From contig JAQWOT010000343.1 of NCBI GenBank assembly GCA_029245725.1, positions 1 through 58,144 on the forward strand: a stretch of DNA of 58,144 nt, written 5' to 3'. Positions 9,658 through 15,237 of this stretch are shown piece by piece. Origin of the DNA: SAR324 cluster bacterium. GTDB taxonomy: Bacteria; SAR324; NAC60-12. Position 1 is the stretch's first letter. Each line of letters begins with the position of its first letter. Under the pieces are notes generated by a model, which was not told the DNA's origin, did not search any database, and saw only the letters and a list, made by a program, of their open reading frames with translations. Both the position numbers and the translations under genes were made by a program.

Positions 9658-10794
9658 ATGATCATCAGAAAAGTCACCCCTTTGAACAGTCCAAATACCA
9701 CATCACAACCAATTGATCTTGAAATCGAAGACGGTAAGATCATCCGCCTTGGACCTCAGTTGGACAACCCAAAGGGTTTTAAAGAGTATGCATTTGAAAA
9801 TGCCCTGATGTCGAAAGGTTGGGTGGATCTGCACGTACACGTCTATTTTGGGGCGACCGACATCTCCATCCGGCCTGAACAGGCTGGACTTGAAACTGGA
9901 GTGACTACTTTAGTTGATTGTGGCTCTGCAGGGGAAGCCAACTTTGTGGGATTTTCAGAATTCATTGCTAAACAGGCCAAAGAGAGGCTCTTTGCTTTCT
10001 TGAACATCGGAAGCATCGGACTTGTCGCCTGCAATCGAATCAGTGAACTTTCTCTTGGGTTTCGCTCGGTGAATGTAGAACGAACTTTAAAAACCATTGA
10101 GAATTATCCTGACCTAATTCGGGGGATCAAGTGCAGGGCTAGTCAGGTCATCACTGGAGACTTAGGTGCTGAAGCAGTACGAGTAGCGAGGAAGGTAGCC
10201 CGTGTCGCAGGATTGCCGCTGATCGTCCATGTTGGGGAACCACCACCCTTGATGGAAGACGTGCTTGATCTTCTCGAGGAAGGGGATGTGGTCACCCATG
10301 CCTTTCATGGGAAACCCGGGGGTAATCTGATGGAGGATCCGAGGTCACTTGCCGCTGTTCACGAAGCGAGAATTCGGGGGGTTTTACTGGACGTGGGGCA
10401 TGGTGCAGCCTCTTTTTCCTTCAAGGTGATGCGCTTTGCGAGAGAGCAGGGAATCGAAACAGATTTGATTAGCACCGACCTGCACCGCAACAGCATCAAG
10501 GGGCCTGCCTACGACCTGCCTACAACCCTTTCAAAACTTTTGAATCTGGGAATGCCGCTGGAACAAGTCATTGCAGCAGGATCAACAAGACCCTCTTCCT
10601 TTTTAGACCCCACGGAGGGGGAAGATTGGTTGAAAGTTGGAAAGAAAGCAGACCTAACAGTATTCCGGGTAGATCAAGCGAACACTTCAGTCGAAGACAG
10701 CCTGGGTGATAATCTCACTTTAACTCAGTTGATTCATCCACTACTCGCCATTCAGGGTGTAAATCATGCTGAGTGCGGTCTACGATTCCAGTAA
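9658..10794 (+). CDS. Amidohydrolase/deacetylase-family metallohydrolase (EF0837-like)
   Basis: A 378-residue amidohydrolase-superfamily enzyme. The metal site is readable: DLHVH gives H59 and H61, K158 (GIKCRA) is the likely carbamylated lysine bridging two metals, H191 (IVHVGEP) and H214/H217 (VTHAFHG) follow, and the catalytic aspartate is in LISTDLHRNS. This matches the group annotated as amidohydrolase/deacetylase or dihydroorotase-like, which is commonly encoded beside SelA/DgaE-like PLP enzymes (EF0837-EF0838 type). Such a PLP enzyme lies at 12707-13813 on the opposite strand of this locus. AAGGA precedes the ATG. It converges with the esterase operon, with only 21 bases between stops. 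Confidence 0.85.
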   Translation: MIIRKVTPLNSPNTTSQPIDLEIEDGKIIRLGPQLDNPKGFKEYAFENALMSKGWVDLHVHVYFGATDISIRPEQAGLETGVTTLVDCGSAGEANFVGFSEFIAKQAKERLFAFLNIGSIGLVACNRISELSLGFRSVNVERTLKTIENYPDLIRGIKCRASQVITGDLGAEAVRVARKVARVAGLPLIVHVGEPPPLMEDVLDLLEEGDVVTHAFHGKPGGNLMEDPRSLAAVHEARIRGVLLDVGHGAASFSFKVMRFAREQGIETDLISTDLHRNSIKGPAYDLPTTLSKLLNLGMPLEQVIAAGSTRPSSFLDPTEGEDWLKVGKKADLTVFRVDQANTSVEDSLGDNLTLTQLIHPLLAIQGVNHAECGLRFQ

Positions 10795-10815: not shown

Positions 10816-11682
10816 CTAGCACCAATGGGCTGGGAGGATCGGCCGGCCATTATCAAGCTTATCTGCAATCCAGTTTGCTTGTCGAACCCCATCTCGATAA
10901 CTCGAGTGCTGCAAAGGTACTCTATCAACAGGCCCCGTAAAAGCCTCAACCAAAGCATCACAGAACCCCACAGAGTCTTCAACTAACATGGTGGGTATTT
11001 GAACATGGGGAGCGTGATGAACTGGTTCAAAATAAGACAGAGTTTTCTCTACGGACATTTGAGCGGATGCTGAGCCTCGCAAGTGATCGTTGAATTCTTC
11101 GAGGGGATAGTTGCTAGCCTGTGATGCCCTCTTAAGGGAGTTGTAATGGAGCGCAGGGGTATAGTGGAGGGCGGCTGCCTCAGATCTACGGGCTGCTGTC
11201 CAAAGCGCTAATTCACCACCAAGTAAGCAAATTCTTTGACCGTCCACTTCTTCACGACTTTTCAAAAAGTCCATGACAGATAGACAATCTCCAGCAATAT
11301 CACGGTAAATGTAGGATTCTGCAGCTTCAATCCCCAAGGTCAATAATCCTGGATATGCTGCCGCAAAAGGCTCATCAGAGAGTCGTTGGCCTCGATGACA
11401 CAACGCTACGCAGATATATTTACAACGCTCTTCGAAAGGTGGGATGTGAACAACGCTCCCATAGTTTGGGAGATGGTAGATGACTGGGAAGGGCCCTTCA
11501 CCTCTTGGCACACTGTAGTAAGCAAAGATTCGATAACCTTTCACACTTGAAAGCTGTAAGCCGTACAGAGTGAATTGAGGTTTGCTGCGAATGGACAGTG
11601 CCTTCAATTCAGGCTCTGGAACCACTGAATTCAAGTCGCTTTCAATACCAGCCCAGAATTGATCAAAGTCCTTTGGTTTCAT
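10816..11682 (-). CDS. Acetyl-xylan-esterase-like protein lacking the catalytic serine
   Basis: A 288-residue paralogue of the adjacent AXE1-family esterase, aligning over its length (KPKDFDQFW matches KPHDFDQFW; AYPGLLTLGI matches GYPGLLTHNI). At the nucleophile elbow the neighbour reads QGSSQGGAL, but this protein reads LGGELALW, so the serine is replaced by glutamate and the second glycine by alanine. Possible Asp (VEDSVG) and His (LQHSSY) equivalents remain. It is therefore probably not a serine esterase; it may be a pseudoenzyme, a partner subunit, or may have changed activity. The ATG at 11682 has AAGGAATC ahead of it. A TTG at 11715 overlapping the upstream stop as TTGA is the alternative start. 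Confidence 0.8.
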   Translation of the reverse strand: MKPKDFDQFWAGIESDLNSVVPEPELKALSIRSKPQFTLYGLQLSSVKGYRIFAYYSVPRGEGPFPVIYHLPNYGSVVHIPPFEERCKYICVALCHRGQRLSDEPFAAAYPGLLTLGIEAAESYIYRDIAGDCLSVMDFLKSREEVDGQRICLLGGELALWTAARRSEAAALHYTPALHYNSLKRASQASNYPLEEFNDHLRGSASAQMSVEKTLSYFEPVHHAPHVQIPTMLVEDSVGFCDALVEAFTGPVDRVPLQHSSYRDGVRQANWIADKLDNGRPILPAHWC

Positions 11683-11711
11683 GATTCCTTGTATTTTCAG
11701 AGCTTGGTGAC

Positions 11712-12647
11712 TCAAGATCCAGCTTGTTTCAATTGGTTGTCGAAAAAAGCATCCACCACATGATCATGCTCATGATGATTGGCGTCATGACCATGCCCTT
11801 CGTATTCGTAGAGCTTTTTATTAGACGTACCAATCCTTTCCATCAATGGATAGGCAGTCTCTGGAGGACAAACATCGTCTTGCAGGCCAATGTACACGAT
11901 GATGGGACATTGAATCCGCTCTGCAAAGTTGAAGCAGTCATAATAATTCCAAGTATCCACTATCGCTGACCTATGTTCTGGGTGTATTCCCAGATAATCG
12001 TTGATTTCCTCATACGGATAAGTACGCGTCAATTTAAAGGCGTCCACGACGCCCGCAAGATAAGGTGCTCCAGCTGAAGCGGCTCTGACTTGTTGACGGA
12101 GCGCGGAGACAACAAGAGTCAATGCACCTCCCTGGCTACTCCCTTGGATTCCAATCCGATCAGAGTCTACCTCTGGTTGCTCAAGTAGAAAATCAATCAC
12201 CCTCACTGCATCGATGTAAAATCCCTTGTAACCGTAATGGTCTCGATCATTGATGTTGTGGGTTAACAAACCAGGATATCCGGGGTTGAATGCGCCATTG
12301 CTCCGTAATTTGCCCCGTGGAGCAGCACCAAAGGTAGCATAACCTTGGGCAGCATGTGATTTTGGCAAGGTTGGCTCACTGATGTAGCCTGGATAGAAAA
12401 CGCGGGCGGGAAGGGTCTTGGTTCTTTCTCTGGGCAGACAATACCAGCCAGCGATTCGCAAACCATCAAGGCTGTCATATTTGACATCAAACACCTCTAC
12501 TTCCTCACTGGAACGCAAAGGATTCAACTCAATCGAGGCATTCAATGGGATTGAGTCAACTTCCTCCATGATTTCCTGCCAAAACTGGTCAAAGTCATGC
12601 GGTTTGACAACTTCCGTAGGATGAGCAGATAAATTTGGTTTGGGCAC
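11712..12647 (-). CDS. Acetyl xylan esterase / cephalosporin-C deacetylase family hydrolase
   Basis: A 311-residue alpha/beta hydrolase of the AXE1 family. The nucleophile is S171 in GSSQGG, the acid is in GLQDDVCPP, and the histidine is in EYEGHGHDANHH. An N-terminal HDFDQFW motif is typical of the family. Members remove acetyl groups from sugars or beta-lactam side chains and are usually cytosolic hexamers; no signal peptide is present. It begins with GTG after a strong AAAGGAG site and is followed at once by its serine-less paralogue. In this operon it probably deacetylates an imported acetylated carbohydrate, which is an inference from the ABC importer upstream. Confidence 0.9.
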   Translation of the reverse strand: MPKPNLSAHPTEVVKPHDFDQFWQEIMEEVDSIPLNASIELNPLRSSEEVEVFDVKYDSLDGLRIAGWYCLPRERTKTLPARVFYPGYISEPTLPKSHAAQGYATFGAAPRGKLRSNGAFNPGYPGLLTHNINDRDHYGYKGFYIDAVRVIDFLLEQPEVDSDRIGIQGSSQGGALTLVVSALRQQVRAASAGAPYLAGVVDAFKLTRTYPYEEINDYLGIHPEHRSAIVDTWNYYDCFNFAERIQCPIIVYIGLQDDVCPPETAYPLMERIGTSNKKLYEYEGHGHDANHHEHDHVVDAFFDNQLKQAGS

Positions 12648-12706: not shown

Positions 12707-13813
12707 TTAATGGATTACCTTGAGAATCTGCTCCAACACAATCTGCGTCTCTTTATCACTAACCGTCATTGGATTGAGAAGGATGGCGTTCAGTTTCTCA
12801 GAGGGAGCAACAGATACTGCAGGTTCGCCCACCATCAATTGGTCCACAAGTTGATCCTTTGACCAATTGTCTGGAAGCTGAACAATAGCTCTTGGGACTG
12901 GTTGTCCTGCTTCATTGGGATAATCTCTTTTGGCTGAGAGTCCACCTTTTCCATTCAAGCCCTGGATCCAGATCTGAACACGCTGCTCGTAGACTTCCAG
13001 CAACTGTTCGTGATCTAAGCTCACGTAGCGCTCTACTGCTGCCAAGAGGCCCATCATTTCCTCCTTGCCGACCTTCATCGGTCTTCCCACACCATGATTG
13101 GGAGCACCCAATATCCTTATCCGCTCAATCCATTCTGACTTTCCAACTACTAGTCCCGATGCTTGTGGGCCTGACAAGTCTTTGCCACCGCTGAAAATTG
13201 CCAGATCTGCCCCTAATTGAGTGAAGTTCCAAAGATTGCTAGCAGGTGGCAACTGGGCAGCTCCATCCACAATGATAGGTACACCCTGCTTTTTGGCGGA
13301 TTGAATGACATCTTCCAAAGAGAGTTCACTCGGCTGATTCATCACACCCTGAAACCAGAAAACAGCAACAGTCGAAGCGCTGTAAGCGTTTTCCAAATCC
13401 TCTAGGGAAGTTCCATCAATTGTTCCAATTTCCACCAAAGTAGCACCTGCTTGCCGCACAGCATAGTCGTAAGGATTCCGGTGCATCCTTTGGACAATGA
13501 CCTCATTCTGAGTTCCGAGTGAATTGGGGAAGCTCTCAAAGGTTGCTCCTGAAACTTTTTGGATGCATGCAGCCGTAGCCAGCAGCAACCCTGTCGCAGC
13601 ACCACAACTTACGAAGGCAGCTTCATTCTGTGTGATTTCTGCCAAGCGAGCCCCAACTTTCTGCTGAAGATCATGCATGTCAACGAATGATTGAGCAGCA
13701 TGCTGCATCGCTTGGCGAATCTCTGCAGGCATCAGCGAACCACCGAGTTTCGTGAGGGTAGCATTCGCATTGATAACAGGCCGAATCCCAAGCGATTTGT
13801 AATTCGAAGTCAT
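12707..13813 (-). CDS. SelA/DgaE-like pyridoxal-phosphate enzyme
   Basis: A 368-residue fold-type I PLP enzyme related to L-seryl-tRNA(Sec) selenium transferase and to D-glucosaminate-6-phosphate ammonia-lyase (DgaE). The Schiff-base lysine is K211 in FSGGKDLSGPQASG, the pyridine-nitrogen aspartate is D183 in VDGAAQLPP, and a glycine-rich phosphate-binding segment SCGAATGLLL is at 69-78. It lacks the N-terminal extension of true SelA, and no selenocysteine gene is near, so an ammonia-lyase or aldolase-type role on an amino sugar acid is more likely. It lies in the operon with the sugar importer and the esterases. Confidence 0.85.
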   Translation of the reverse strand: MTSNYKSLGIRPVINANATLTKLGGSLMPAEIRQAMQHAAQSFVDMHDLQQKVGARLAEITQNEAAFVSCGAATGLLLATAACIQKVSGATFESFPNSLGTQNEVIVQRMHRNPYDYAVRQAGATLVEIGTIDGTSLEDLENAYSASTVAVFWFQGVMNQPSELSLEDVIQSAKKQGVPIIVDGAAQLPPASNLWNFTQLGADLAIFSGGKDLSGPQASGLVVGKSEWIERIRILGAPNHGVGRPMKVGKEEMMGLLAAVERYVSLDHEQLLEVYEQRVQIWIQGLNGKGGLSAKRDYPNEAGQPVPRAIVQLPDNWSKDQLVDQLMVGEPAVSVAPSEKLNAILLNPMTVSDKETQIVLEQILKVIH

Positions 13814-13885: not shown

Positions 13886-14407
13886 TCATCCACCATGATC
13901 TTGCTGCAACAGACCTACACCATAGAATTCGTAGGAAGCAGCTTCGTCCGGGAAGTCGACAACATGGACGGTAAAACGAGCTGGAACTCCATTTTGTGGG
14001 CATTTCTCTTTGAAGAAATTGCGGTAAGCCTTTGCATATTCTGCACGTACTCTTTCCTGCTCTTTGCGATAACCTGCTGGATCAGAGAGCGGGCTGGGAG
14101 ACTTTGGTTGGGCTCCAAATGCGTGAATTTCGATGAAGTCTATTTCTGCGATCGACTGACAGATTCCAGCCTCTTGTAACCAGTATTCCCAGCAACGAAA
14201 GACCAATGGAACTTCAATAGCAGGTTCCATGCTTGTGACTGAATCCAACTGAAGAACCTTTGTTGCAGAGTGCCCTCCAGTAAGCCCTGAGAAGTGAATT
14301 CGTAGGTCTCCATCAGGTTGTTTTTCTACCACCATTGCTGATAAAACAGGATCTTCACCCTCGTAGTAGTAGGTTAACTTTCCACGTTTCTTTACCAAAA
14401 AGGCCAT
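13886..14407 (-). CDS. Protein of unknown function, in the sugar-importer operon
   Basis: A 173-residue soluble protein with no signal peptide or membrane segment. I do not recognise it. The first half is strand-rich (MAFLVKKRGKLTYYYEGEDP), there is an acidic FIEIHAFGAQPKS stretch near the middle, a charged helix around YRKEQERVRAEYAKAYRNFF, and a C-terminal VHVVDFPDEAASYEFYG segment. The ATG at 14407 is preferred over the TTG two codons upstream because AAGAGGA lies 7 bases before it. It sits between the SelA-like enzyme and the epimerase in the same direction, so a role in the same carbohydrate pathway is likely but unspecified. Confidence 0.7.
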   Translation of the reverse strand: MAFLVKKRGKLTYYYEGEDPVLSAMVVEKQPDGDLRIHFSGLTGGHSATKVLQLDSVTSMEPAIEVPLVFRCWEYWLQEAGICQSIAEIDFIEIHAFGAQPKSPSPLSDPAGYRKEQERVRAEYAKAYRNFFKEKCPQNGVPARFTVHVVDFPDEAASYEFYGVGLLQQDHGG

Positions 14408-14496
14408 TTTCAATCCTCTTAGATTGTTAGGTTTGATCAGCAGACTCAGGATTTTGATGAAGCAGATCTAATGAAATGTAACTTGCCAAATAGGCT

Positions 14497-15204
14497 TTAT
14501 GTGGCTGGTCTAGCCTTTGGAGTCCAATCCAACATTCGTTCAGCCTTGGCCATGCACATAATTTTTTGTTCATAGTCTCCACTGAGCATGAAAGCCTGAA
14601 AACCTGCCTTCAGTTCGAGGGCTGCAAGCATTGCAGAGGCAATATCTTCATCAGTTGTCGCTATTGTAGTAACTCCTTGTTGGGTCTCGCTCAGCCACTT
14701 TTCTTTCAGGGTAGGATGACATAGACGCAGAGCATTCGTATGCATTCCCCATCTTCGCCAGGCATTGCGACAAATTTCCTCACCCAGCCACTTCGTGAAA
14801 CCATAAAGCGCTGTTTCATCTGGTGGGATTTCCTCATCTTGAAAGTAGCGCTTCCGGAGATCCGCATAGACCGACATACTGCTACAGTAGACAGCCTGTT
14901 GGATCCCTGCTGCCTGCGCACTCCTCAATAAGAAATGTAGACCCTTGACATTCACATCGTAAGCAGAGTCAACCCCTTTCCAGGTGTCCCAGTCTTCGCT
15001 ACCCATTGCCAGATAGATCAAAGCATCCATACCCTTAACGGCTTTTTCTAAACCAACAGGATCTGTTAGTTCTCCTTGAAGAAATTCCAGTGACTGATCC
15101 ACCGGGGGATTTCGATCATAGACTCGTAGTTGATGCTGCTTTTTGAGAAAGGGGATAACTAGGGTTGCTACCCGACCACTACCCCCCGCAAGAAGAACTT
15201 TCAT
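14497..15204 (-). CDS. NAD(P)-dependent epimerase/dehydratase-family protein
   Basis: A 235-residue short-chain-dehydrogenase-type (extended) protein. The nucleotide motif is GGSGRVATLV at the N-terminus, an acidic residue follows (VYDRN), the catalytic serine region is VYCSSMSVY, and the YxxxK pair is YGFTKWLGEE. It is shorter than most sugar-nucleotide epimerases, close to uronate-dehydrogenase-like proteins, so oxidation of a sugar acid is possible. The ATG at 15204 (MKVLLAGG) is chosen over an upstream TTG at 15222. It follows the permease gene in the same direction. Confidence 0.8.
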   Translation of the reverse strand: MKVLLAGGSGRVATLVIPFLKKQHQLRVYDRNPPVDQSLEFLQGELTDPVGLEKAVKGMDALIYLAMGSEDWDTWKGVDSAYDVNVKGLHFLLRSAQAAGIQQAVYCSSMSVYADLRKRYFQDEEIPPDETALYGFTKWLGEEICRNAWRRWGMHTNALRLCHPTLKEKWLSETQQGVTTIATTDEDIASAMLAALELKAGFQAFMLSGDYEQKIMCMAKAERMLDWTPKARPAT

Positions 15205-15237
15205 TCGATTTCCATAAAGCAAGTAAAATTAATAACT

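Follow-up and report, generated by a model that had tools for sequence, protein, structure and literature searches.

A conserved serine-less paralogue paired with a canonical CE7 esterase in SAR324 bacteria, and its possible role as a non-catalytic partner

The DNA analysed here is a stretch of 58,144 nucleotides from a SAR324 cluster bacterium (contig JAQWOT010000343.1; hereafter the window), in which two neighbouring genes of the reverse strand encode proteins of the AXE1/CE7 esterase family. One of them, called A in what follows, is a canonical AXE1/CE7 esterase of 311 residues (11712–12647, reverse strand; PF05448, E-value 4e-59), and the other, called D, is a paralogue of 288 residues that lacks the nucleophile serine (10816–11682, reverse strand; PF05448, E-value 1.7e-22, with the start codon taken from a comparison of eight copies and the fold from a structural model). 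Both pass the family cut-off of 21 bits (A with 200.4 and D with 80.1 bits), and they are 28% identical across 239 residues (BLAST). The cephalosporin C deacetylase of Bacillus subtilis (1l7a) can be aligned to most of A (8.7e-48, phmmer), and the same CE7 structures cover only residues 13–254 of the longer frame that can be read for D.

The length of D depends on which start codon is accepted. The ATG at 11682, preceded in the window by AAGGA, is common to seven of the eight aligned copies, and the remaining one (L029) has its ATG one codon earlier. A TTG start at 11715, by which D would overlap A, is unlikely, given that the longer frame is not conserved: it is closed by a stop codon in three of six copies of the same genus (G001, G002 and G003), and the breaks seen upstream of the ATG are an inserted base in L023 and L024 and a TAA in L026. 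Since the ATG is the conserved start, D has 288 residues and begins 29 nucleotides past the stop codon of A, with no overlap of the two genes. An initial reading of this DNA, made from the letters alone (the sequence-only reading), had described D as a full-length protein. This is roughly correct (288 against 311 residues), except that the first 13 residues of A have no counterpart in D (hhalign) and the C-terminal part of D is shorter.

Protein A presents a complete Ser-Asp-His triad, matched by alignment to 1l7a and other relatives. Its nucleophile elbow, the GSSQGG noted in the sequence-only reading, lies at 12126–12143 on the reverse strand and carries Ser171; the catalytic Asp257 is found in the motif IGLQDD (11877–11879, reverse strand). 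The catalytic histidine is one of the two in GHGHD (11787–11795, reverse strand), and the alignments disagree as to which: His285 according to phmmer against 1l7a, His287 according to MAFFT and hmmalign against other relatives. A is best read as a working CE7-type deacetylase of carbohydrates or small esters.

In D, the corresponding elbow is shortened to L-G-G-E-L-A (11206–11223, reverse strand). The sequence-only reading had placed this motif opposite the elbow of A and noted the loss of the serine; the serine is indeed absent, although the loss is not a point change, because all alignments made leave D short by four residues, either at the elbow or just behind it. BLAST, MAFFT, hhalign and hmmalign (eight of eight D rows) let the serine fall inside this gap, whereas phmmer against 1l7a sets Glu157 of D on the catalytic serine and opens the gap directly after it; the limits of the helices in the models of A and D fit the former placement somewhat better. 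Whether the gap lies in the elbow or after it, D has no serine there. The motif GG[E/D]LA is present in nine of nine orthologues, as GGELA in the genus of the window and as GGDLA in the other two genera, and among the eight complete copies the acidic residue is Glu in five and Asp in three, so that it is not an invariant Asp.

The remaining places of the triad are harder to assign. The column of the catalytic Asp holds Gly in one alignment and, in that made with MAFFT, Asp in six copies, Glu in one and Asn in one; hmmalign places an Asp in two of the eight copies and leaves the other six unaligned, and the place of this residue in D must be considered unsure. His259 (10906–10908, reverse strand) is invariant in all eight complete copies and sits just past the last predicted strand, the usual position of the catalytic histidine in this fold, which is why the base may have remained in D. 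This residue is not aligned with the histidine of A by MAFFT or hmmalign, and it lies in a region of the model with low confidence. Glu235 is also invariant in the eight complete copies. The loss of serine-esterase chemistry in D is nearly certain.

The distribution of D in the phylum was examined by a profile search, which located it in 9 of 52 genomes; a tenth genome gave a weak match that keeps the serine. A search of 58 relatives gave matches in 11, nine of them with D. The nine D-bearing genomes, that of the window included, span three genera, and in each of the nine A adjoins D on the same strand. When the genome collection was scanned with D, eight loci came up (five labelled Deltaproteobacteria bacterium, two uncultured proteobacterium and one SAR324 cluster bacterium), the window's own record possibly being omitted. 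Genes of the A clade (at least 74% identity) occur only in the same nine among 383 genomes. Across these 383, the profile of D has matches in 31, of which 22 are outside the phylum; every outside match was read, and all have a normal elbow, including the best (G316, 3.8e-25, GISQGG), so that no serine-less elbow was found there. The elbow serine is likewise kept by 47 of 47 other AXE1-like relatives that were read (26, L083 and a further 20). These relatives are search matches and do not sample the family at random, and in the last 20 the serine was identified by its motif within the matched range and not by an aligned column (L116 and L118 being distant matches). The weak places of the A search in G361, G148, G098, G234:C94, G127, G162 and G352 were left unread. 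Outside the phylum, one contig (G316:C34) bears two AXE1 matches (L099 and L062) about 1.5 kb apart on one strand, both with a serine elbow.

In the plasmid collection no D-like protein was found (seven records matched, the best at 26.6%); of the 44 plasmid records from another search, 2 were read. Five regions around plasmid matches of A or of the neighbouring PLP enzyme were inspected: the four annotated ones contain no such cassette, and the fifth is deposited without gene annotation. The patterns used found nothing like D or A in the viral collection.

The sequence-only reading had asked for other genomes with the same pair and for a clade in which the serine-less form is conserved, and had regarded serine-bearing orthologues of D, the mark of a lone mutation, as contrary to its proposal. 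Both the pair and the clade exist, A standing beside D and D carrying GG[E/D]LA in nine of nine genomes, and orthologues with serine were looked for and not found among the nine. A phylogeny of 43 proteins resolves D and A as one clade each (support 100/100 for both), with the D clade on a long stem of 2.07. Joining the two clades as sisters costs 3.07 log units relative to the best tree and is not rejected (p-AU 0.278). Since long branches meet at the node that would join them, a duplication of A as the origin of D is likely but not proven; D is best read as an anciently diverged CE7 paralogue, probably a tandem duplicate of A. The clades of A and of D are alike in that a copy from genus g7 (L007) groups with one copy from genus g3 (L008) and not with the other (L009); both clades make this pairing, and A and D therefore share one history, possibly with transfer. 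As an observation apart, the pair of G024, a genome of genus g7 (L027 5064–6892, L028 7037–8864), is nearer, in A as well as in D, to one of the two g3 copies than these are to one another, and its placement hints at a transfer of the whole cassette or at a binning error.

All eight complete copies of D have an uninterrupted frame from the ATG. The ratio of nonsynonymous to synonymous changes (Nei-Gojobori) is 0.086–0.202 for D, where dS could be measured in 11 of 28 pairs, the other 17 being saturated, and 0.055–0.093 for A, also in 11 of 28 pairs, and the copies of D from other genera are 55–62% identical to that of the window. The ninth copy (G005/L030, at L030 2652–3703) is broken by a run of N with duplicated flanks, which resembles an artefact of scaffolding; the tree, the conservation profile and the dN/dS set exclude this copy, of which only the GGELA piece was read. 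As for the remaining sets, L038 duplicates L012 and was removed, alignments A2 and A3 and the dN/dS set do not include the A copy of L024 (L004, the copy from the same contig, is included in the motif reading and the tree), and alignment A3 consists of eight A rows and five of the eight D rows. Taken together, the conservation of the clade, the dN/dS values and the fact that none of the 47 other relatives lacks the serine argue that the loss of this residue in D is not due to chance. The proposal that an intact frame is being kept by selection in spite of the lost nucleophile is supported by purifying selection on the clade, which always stands beside the active paralogue.

What has been conserved in D is not distributed as in A. 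Its best 24-residue segment (residues 63–86) is 96% identical between genera, and none of 2,000 permutations of the columns reached as high a value, whereas the best block of A (97%) is located at the Asp loop. The most conserved block of D, FPVIYHLPNYGSVVHIPPFEER (11425–11490, reverse strand), comprises strand β4 and the loop that follows it, where the pocket residues of CE7 enzymes are found. Conservation of A between genera reaches 1.00 in the loop after β4, 0.97 in the Asp loop, 0.92 in each of GSSQGG, YPGLLT and YPYEEIN, and 0.81 in the His segment; in D (mean 0.59) the loop after β4 has 1.00 and the first part of the interface stretch 0.86, its highest values, and the segment of YPGLLT stands at 0.72, that of the elbow at 0.58 and those near the Asp loop at 0.46 and 0.37. 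D retains Tyr74 (invariant and aligned to Tyr88 of A), an RG pair and YPGLLT. The last motif belongs to the segment of D that matches the β-interface loop of CE7 enzymes (11305–11391, reverse strand; by alignment, with the interface as described in PMC6209228), and it is common to A; similar versions, YPGFMT and FPGLMT, are found in other relatives. Forty-six residues are invariant in both A and D, and ten of these are rare (at most 20%) in 26 other relatives, two leucines of the interface loop among them. The identity between D and A is 0.386 in the interface loop, 0.454 in the following helix and 0.444 in segment 206–225, so that the likeness of the loop, raised but not unique, is suggestive only.

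The fold of D was modelled with AlphaFold2 from 16 sequences, with a mean pLDDT of 71 and a pTM of 0.79 (the model of A is better, with a mean pLDDT of 81.9). Values below 50 are found at residues 75–77, 100–112, 180–182, 189–193, 257–266 and 281–288, and they touch the conserved block (75–77), the interface stretch (100–112) and the region of the histidine (257–266). When the model was compared with known structures, the first 21 rows were CE7 enzymes (Z 22.1–27.1), the next fold appearing at 17.7, and the best match was 3fyt_L (Z 27.1, rmsd 2.7, 265 residues aligned); with Foldseek the first 48 rows were CE7. The earlier claim that D keeps the fold is consequently borne out by a model of moderate confidence whose top matches are all of this family.

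CE7 enzymes are described as donut-shaped homo-hexamers, trimers of dimers, with six active sites that face a narrow tunnel; the dimers are joined through the loop between β5 and α4, and the N-terminus acts as a gatekeeper at the tunnel entrance (PMC6209228). The published dimer loop was placed on D by alignment and not by superposition. In the Thermotoga enzyme, deletion of this loop is reported to have lowered thermal stability (PMC6209228), an effect that does not by itself make the loop indispensable for assembly.

The pair is embedded in what appears to be a catabolic cassette. Upstream of A lies a SelA/DgaE-like PLP enzyme (12707–13813, reverse strand; PF03841, 1.1e-13, with TIGR01437 below the cut-off), whose counterpart adjoins A in five of five longer loci that were read. 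It is preceded by a protein of 175 residues (13886–14413, reverse strand; KKRGKLTYYYEGEDPVLSAMVVE near its start) that matches no Pfam family in the window copy, even at an E-value of 5, and no NCBIfam model; each of the five longer loci has a similar frame at this place. A member of the NAD-dependent epimerase/dehydratase family (14497–15222, reverse strand; PF01370) belongs to the same cassette and is present in three of the five (L023, L025 and L028), and transporter genes are located upstream. On the other side, a metallohydrolase of the amidohydrolase/deacetylase family (9658–10794, forward strand; NF006689, 372.3 bits with a cut-off of 371) converges on D, and the window, L023, L025 and L028 all have an amidohydrolase gene close to the pair. 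In L029 and L027 its place is taken by another gene that follows D (L029 4714–5508 and L027 6955–7773, with similar starts), and that of L029 matches the RraA-like aldolase family. The cassette looks like one that breaks down an acylated sugar or amino-sugar acid, A being the deacylase; the identity of the substrate is a guess.

The best reading of these observations is that D is a selected, non-catalytic CE7 subunit, that is, a pseudoenzyme paralogue, and that it probably acts as a non-enzymatic partner of A. The least credible of the other accounts, a lone mutation or a sequencing error of this assembly, has a negligible probability: the loss of the serine is common to nine genome assemblies, nothing was found that speaks for it, and the orthologues refute it. 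That D is a decaying pseudogene whose frame has not yet been broken is very unlikely. Its dN/dS is somewhat above that of A and its stem branch is long, as such an account would have it, but the ratios themselves (0.09–0.20) disfavour it, as do the eight whole frames and the persistence of the gene across three genera. A different matter is whether D has acquired new chemistry. Some α/β hydrolases, such as haloalkane dehalogenases and epoxide hydrolases, use an Asp as the nucleophile, and the acidic residue of the elbow (Glu in the genus of the window, Asp in the other two) could act together with His259 in the same manner. The phmmer placement of Glu157 agrees with this proposal, and so do the Asp found in six of eight copies in the MAFFT column of the acid and the position of the invariant His259 and Glu235, in or just past the predicted strands that precede the base and the acid. 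If the gap follows the elbow, moreover, G-G-[E/D]-L-A in the eight complete copies is near G-x-Nuc-x-G, the nucleophile-elbow pattern (PMC7034887). Against it, an exchange of Glu and Asp is not expected of a nucleophile, the segments of the acid loop are among the least conserved of D and that of the elbow is only average, and four methods set the serine in the gap, the placement that the helix limits of the models fit somewhat better. We consider this chemistry improbable, and a shade less credible still the fuller version in which D, re-armed with the acidic elbow residue, His259 and a nearby acid, would have become a new hydrolase or lyase, A and D working one after the other on the same pathway intermediate.

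Two further possibilities preserve the non-catalytic character of D and do without A. D may form a homo-oligomer of its own, or it may be a stand-alone pseudoenzyme, ligand-binding or chaperone-like, whose pocket binds a compound of the pathway with no complex with A being formed. The latter would suit the fact that the best-kept block is precisely the strand and loop with the CE7 pocket residues, including the invariant Tyr74; the strict pairing with A in nine of nine genomes and the conservation of the interface stretch weigh against it, and we regard it as rather unlikely. It is this co-occurrence, together with the conserved stretch aligned to the CE7 dimer loop, that favours a regulatory role in a hetero-oligomer, which the sequence-only reading had suggested, and strict pairing combined with the loss of the serine makes a mixed A-D ring the simplest account.

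According to the preferred reading, to which we give about an even chance, D lost the serine and part of the elbow and has since been retained as a non-catalytic subunit of a mixed CE7 ring in which it alters the sites of A. D would co-assemble with A through the conserved β-interface, and its remaining pocket, as well as the absence of the N-terminal 13 residues, would change substrate access, stability or the response to ligands at the sites of A. Within such a ring D would lend structure, widen the entrance or add a site that responds to ligands. We infer the physical association of A and D, the composition of the ring and the effect on A from the sequences. Conserved and paired with its partner, the serine-less paralogue is a candidate member of a naturally mixed CE7 ring, of which no example was found in the literature searched, and the pair lends itself to testing how the ring and the β-interface contribute apart from catalysis. 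The pair also has a consequence for annotation: if genes were named by family match only, A and D would both be called acetyl xylan esterases, and only A has the nucleophile for that chemistry. The literature search returned no match that links SAR324 with an acetyl xylan esterase and no publication on a CE7 pseudoenzyme, subscription papers being covered only in part; what it gave for acetyl xylan esterases and pseudoenzymes together was a review of bifunctional lignocellulose enzymes, and the titles listed for pseudoenzymes more widely include none on a CE7 or bacterial esterase. As far as these searches show, D is ordinary in kind, as a pseudoenzyme paralogue, and unusual for the CE7 family.

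How D relates to known systems can be considered at three levels. At the level of the cassette, the clusters with DgaE/SelA-like enzymes and EF_0837-like amidohydrolases, which serve catabolism of the D-glucosaminate type, resemble the locus in that a similar PLP-enzyme gene lies by the pair and the window also has an amidohydrolase that broadly belongs to their group; the matches of the DgaE and EF_0837 models here are, however, below their cut-offs, and an AXE1 pair is not known as a part of such systems. At the level of the fold, proteins of the NDRG family are not known to have catalytic activity. They have a hydrolase fold (PMC7022630), and, like D, they combine it with the lack of a working triad, as do neuroligins and the C-terminal domain of thyroglobulin. 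Non-catalytic proteins with the α/β-hydrolase fold serve other roles, for example in protein partnership (PMC5943944). These proteins are eukaryotic and belong to other subfamilies, whereas D comes from bacteria, belongs to CE7 and stands next to its active paralogue in an apparent catabolic cluster. Finally, within the family itself, A and D are like the characterized CE7/AXE1 esterases (PF05448; 1l7a, 1ods, 3fvr, 1vlq and 6agq) in family, fold, β-interface region and pocket Tyr. The whole triad of these enzymes is like that of A and not like that of D, which differs from them in having no elbow serine, in being four residues short at that place, in its unsure catalytic Asp, in its shorter C-terminal part and in lacking the 13 N-terminal residues of A.
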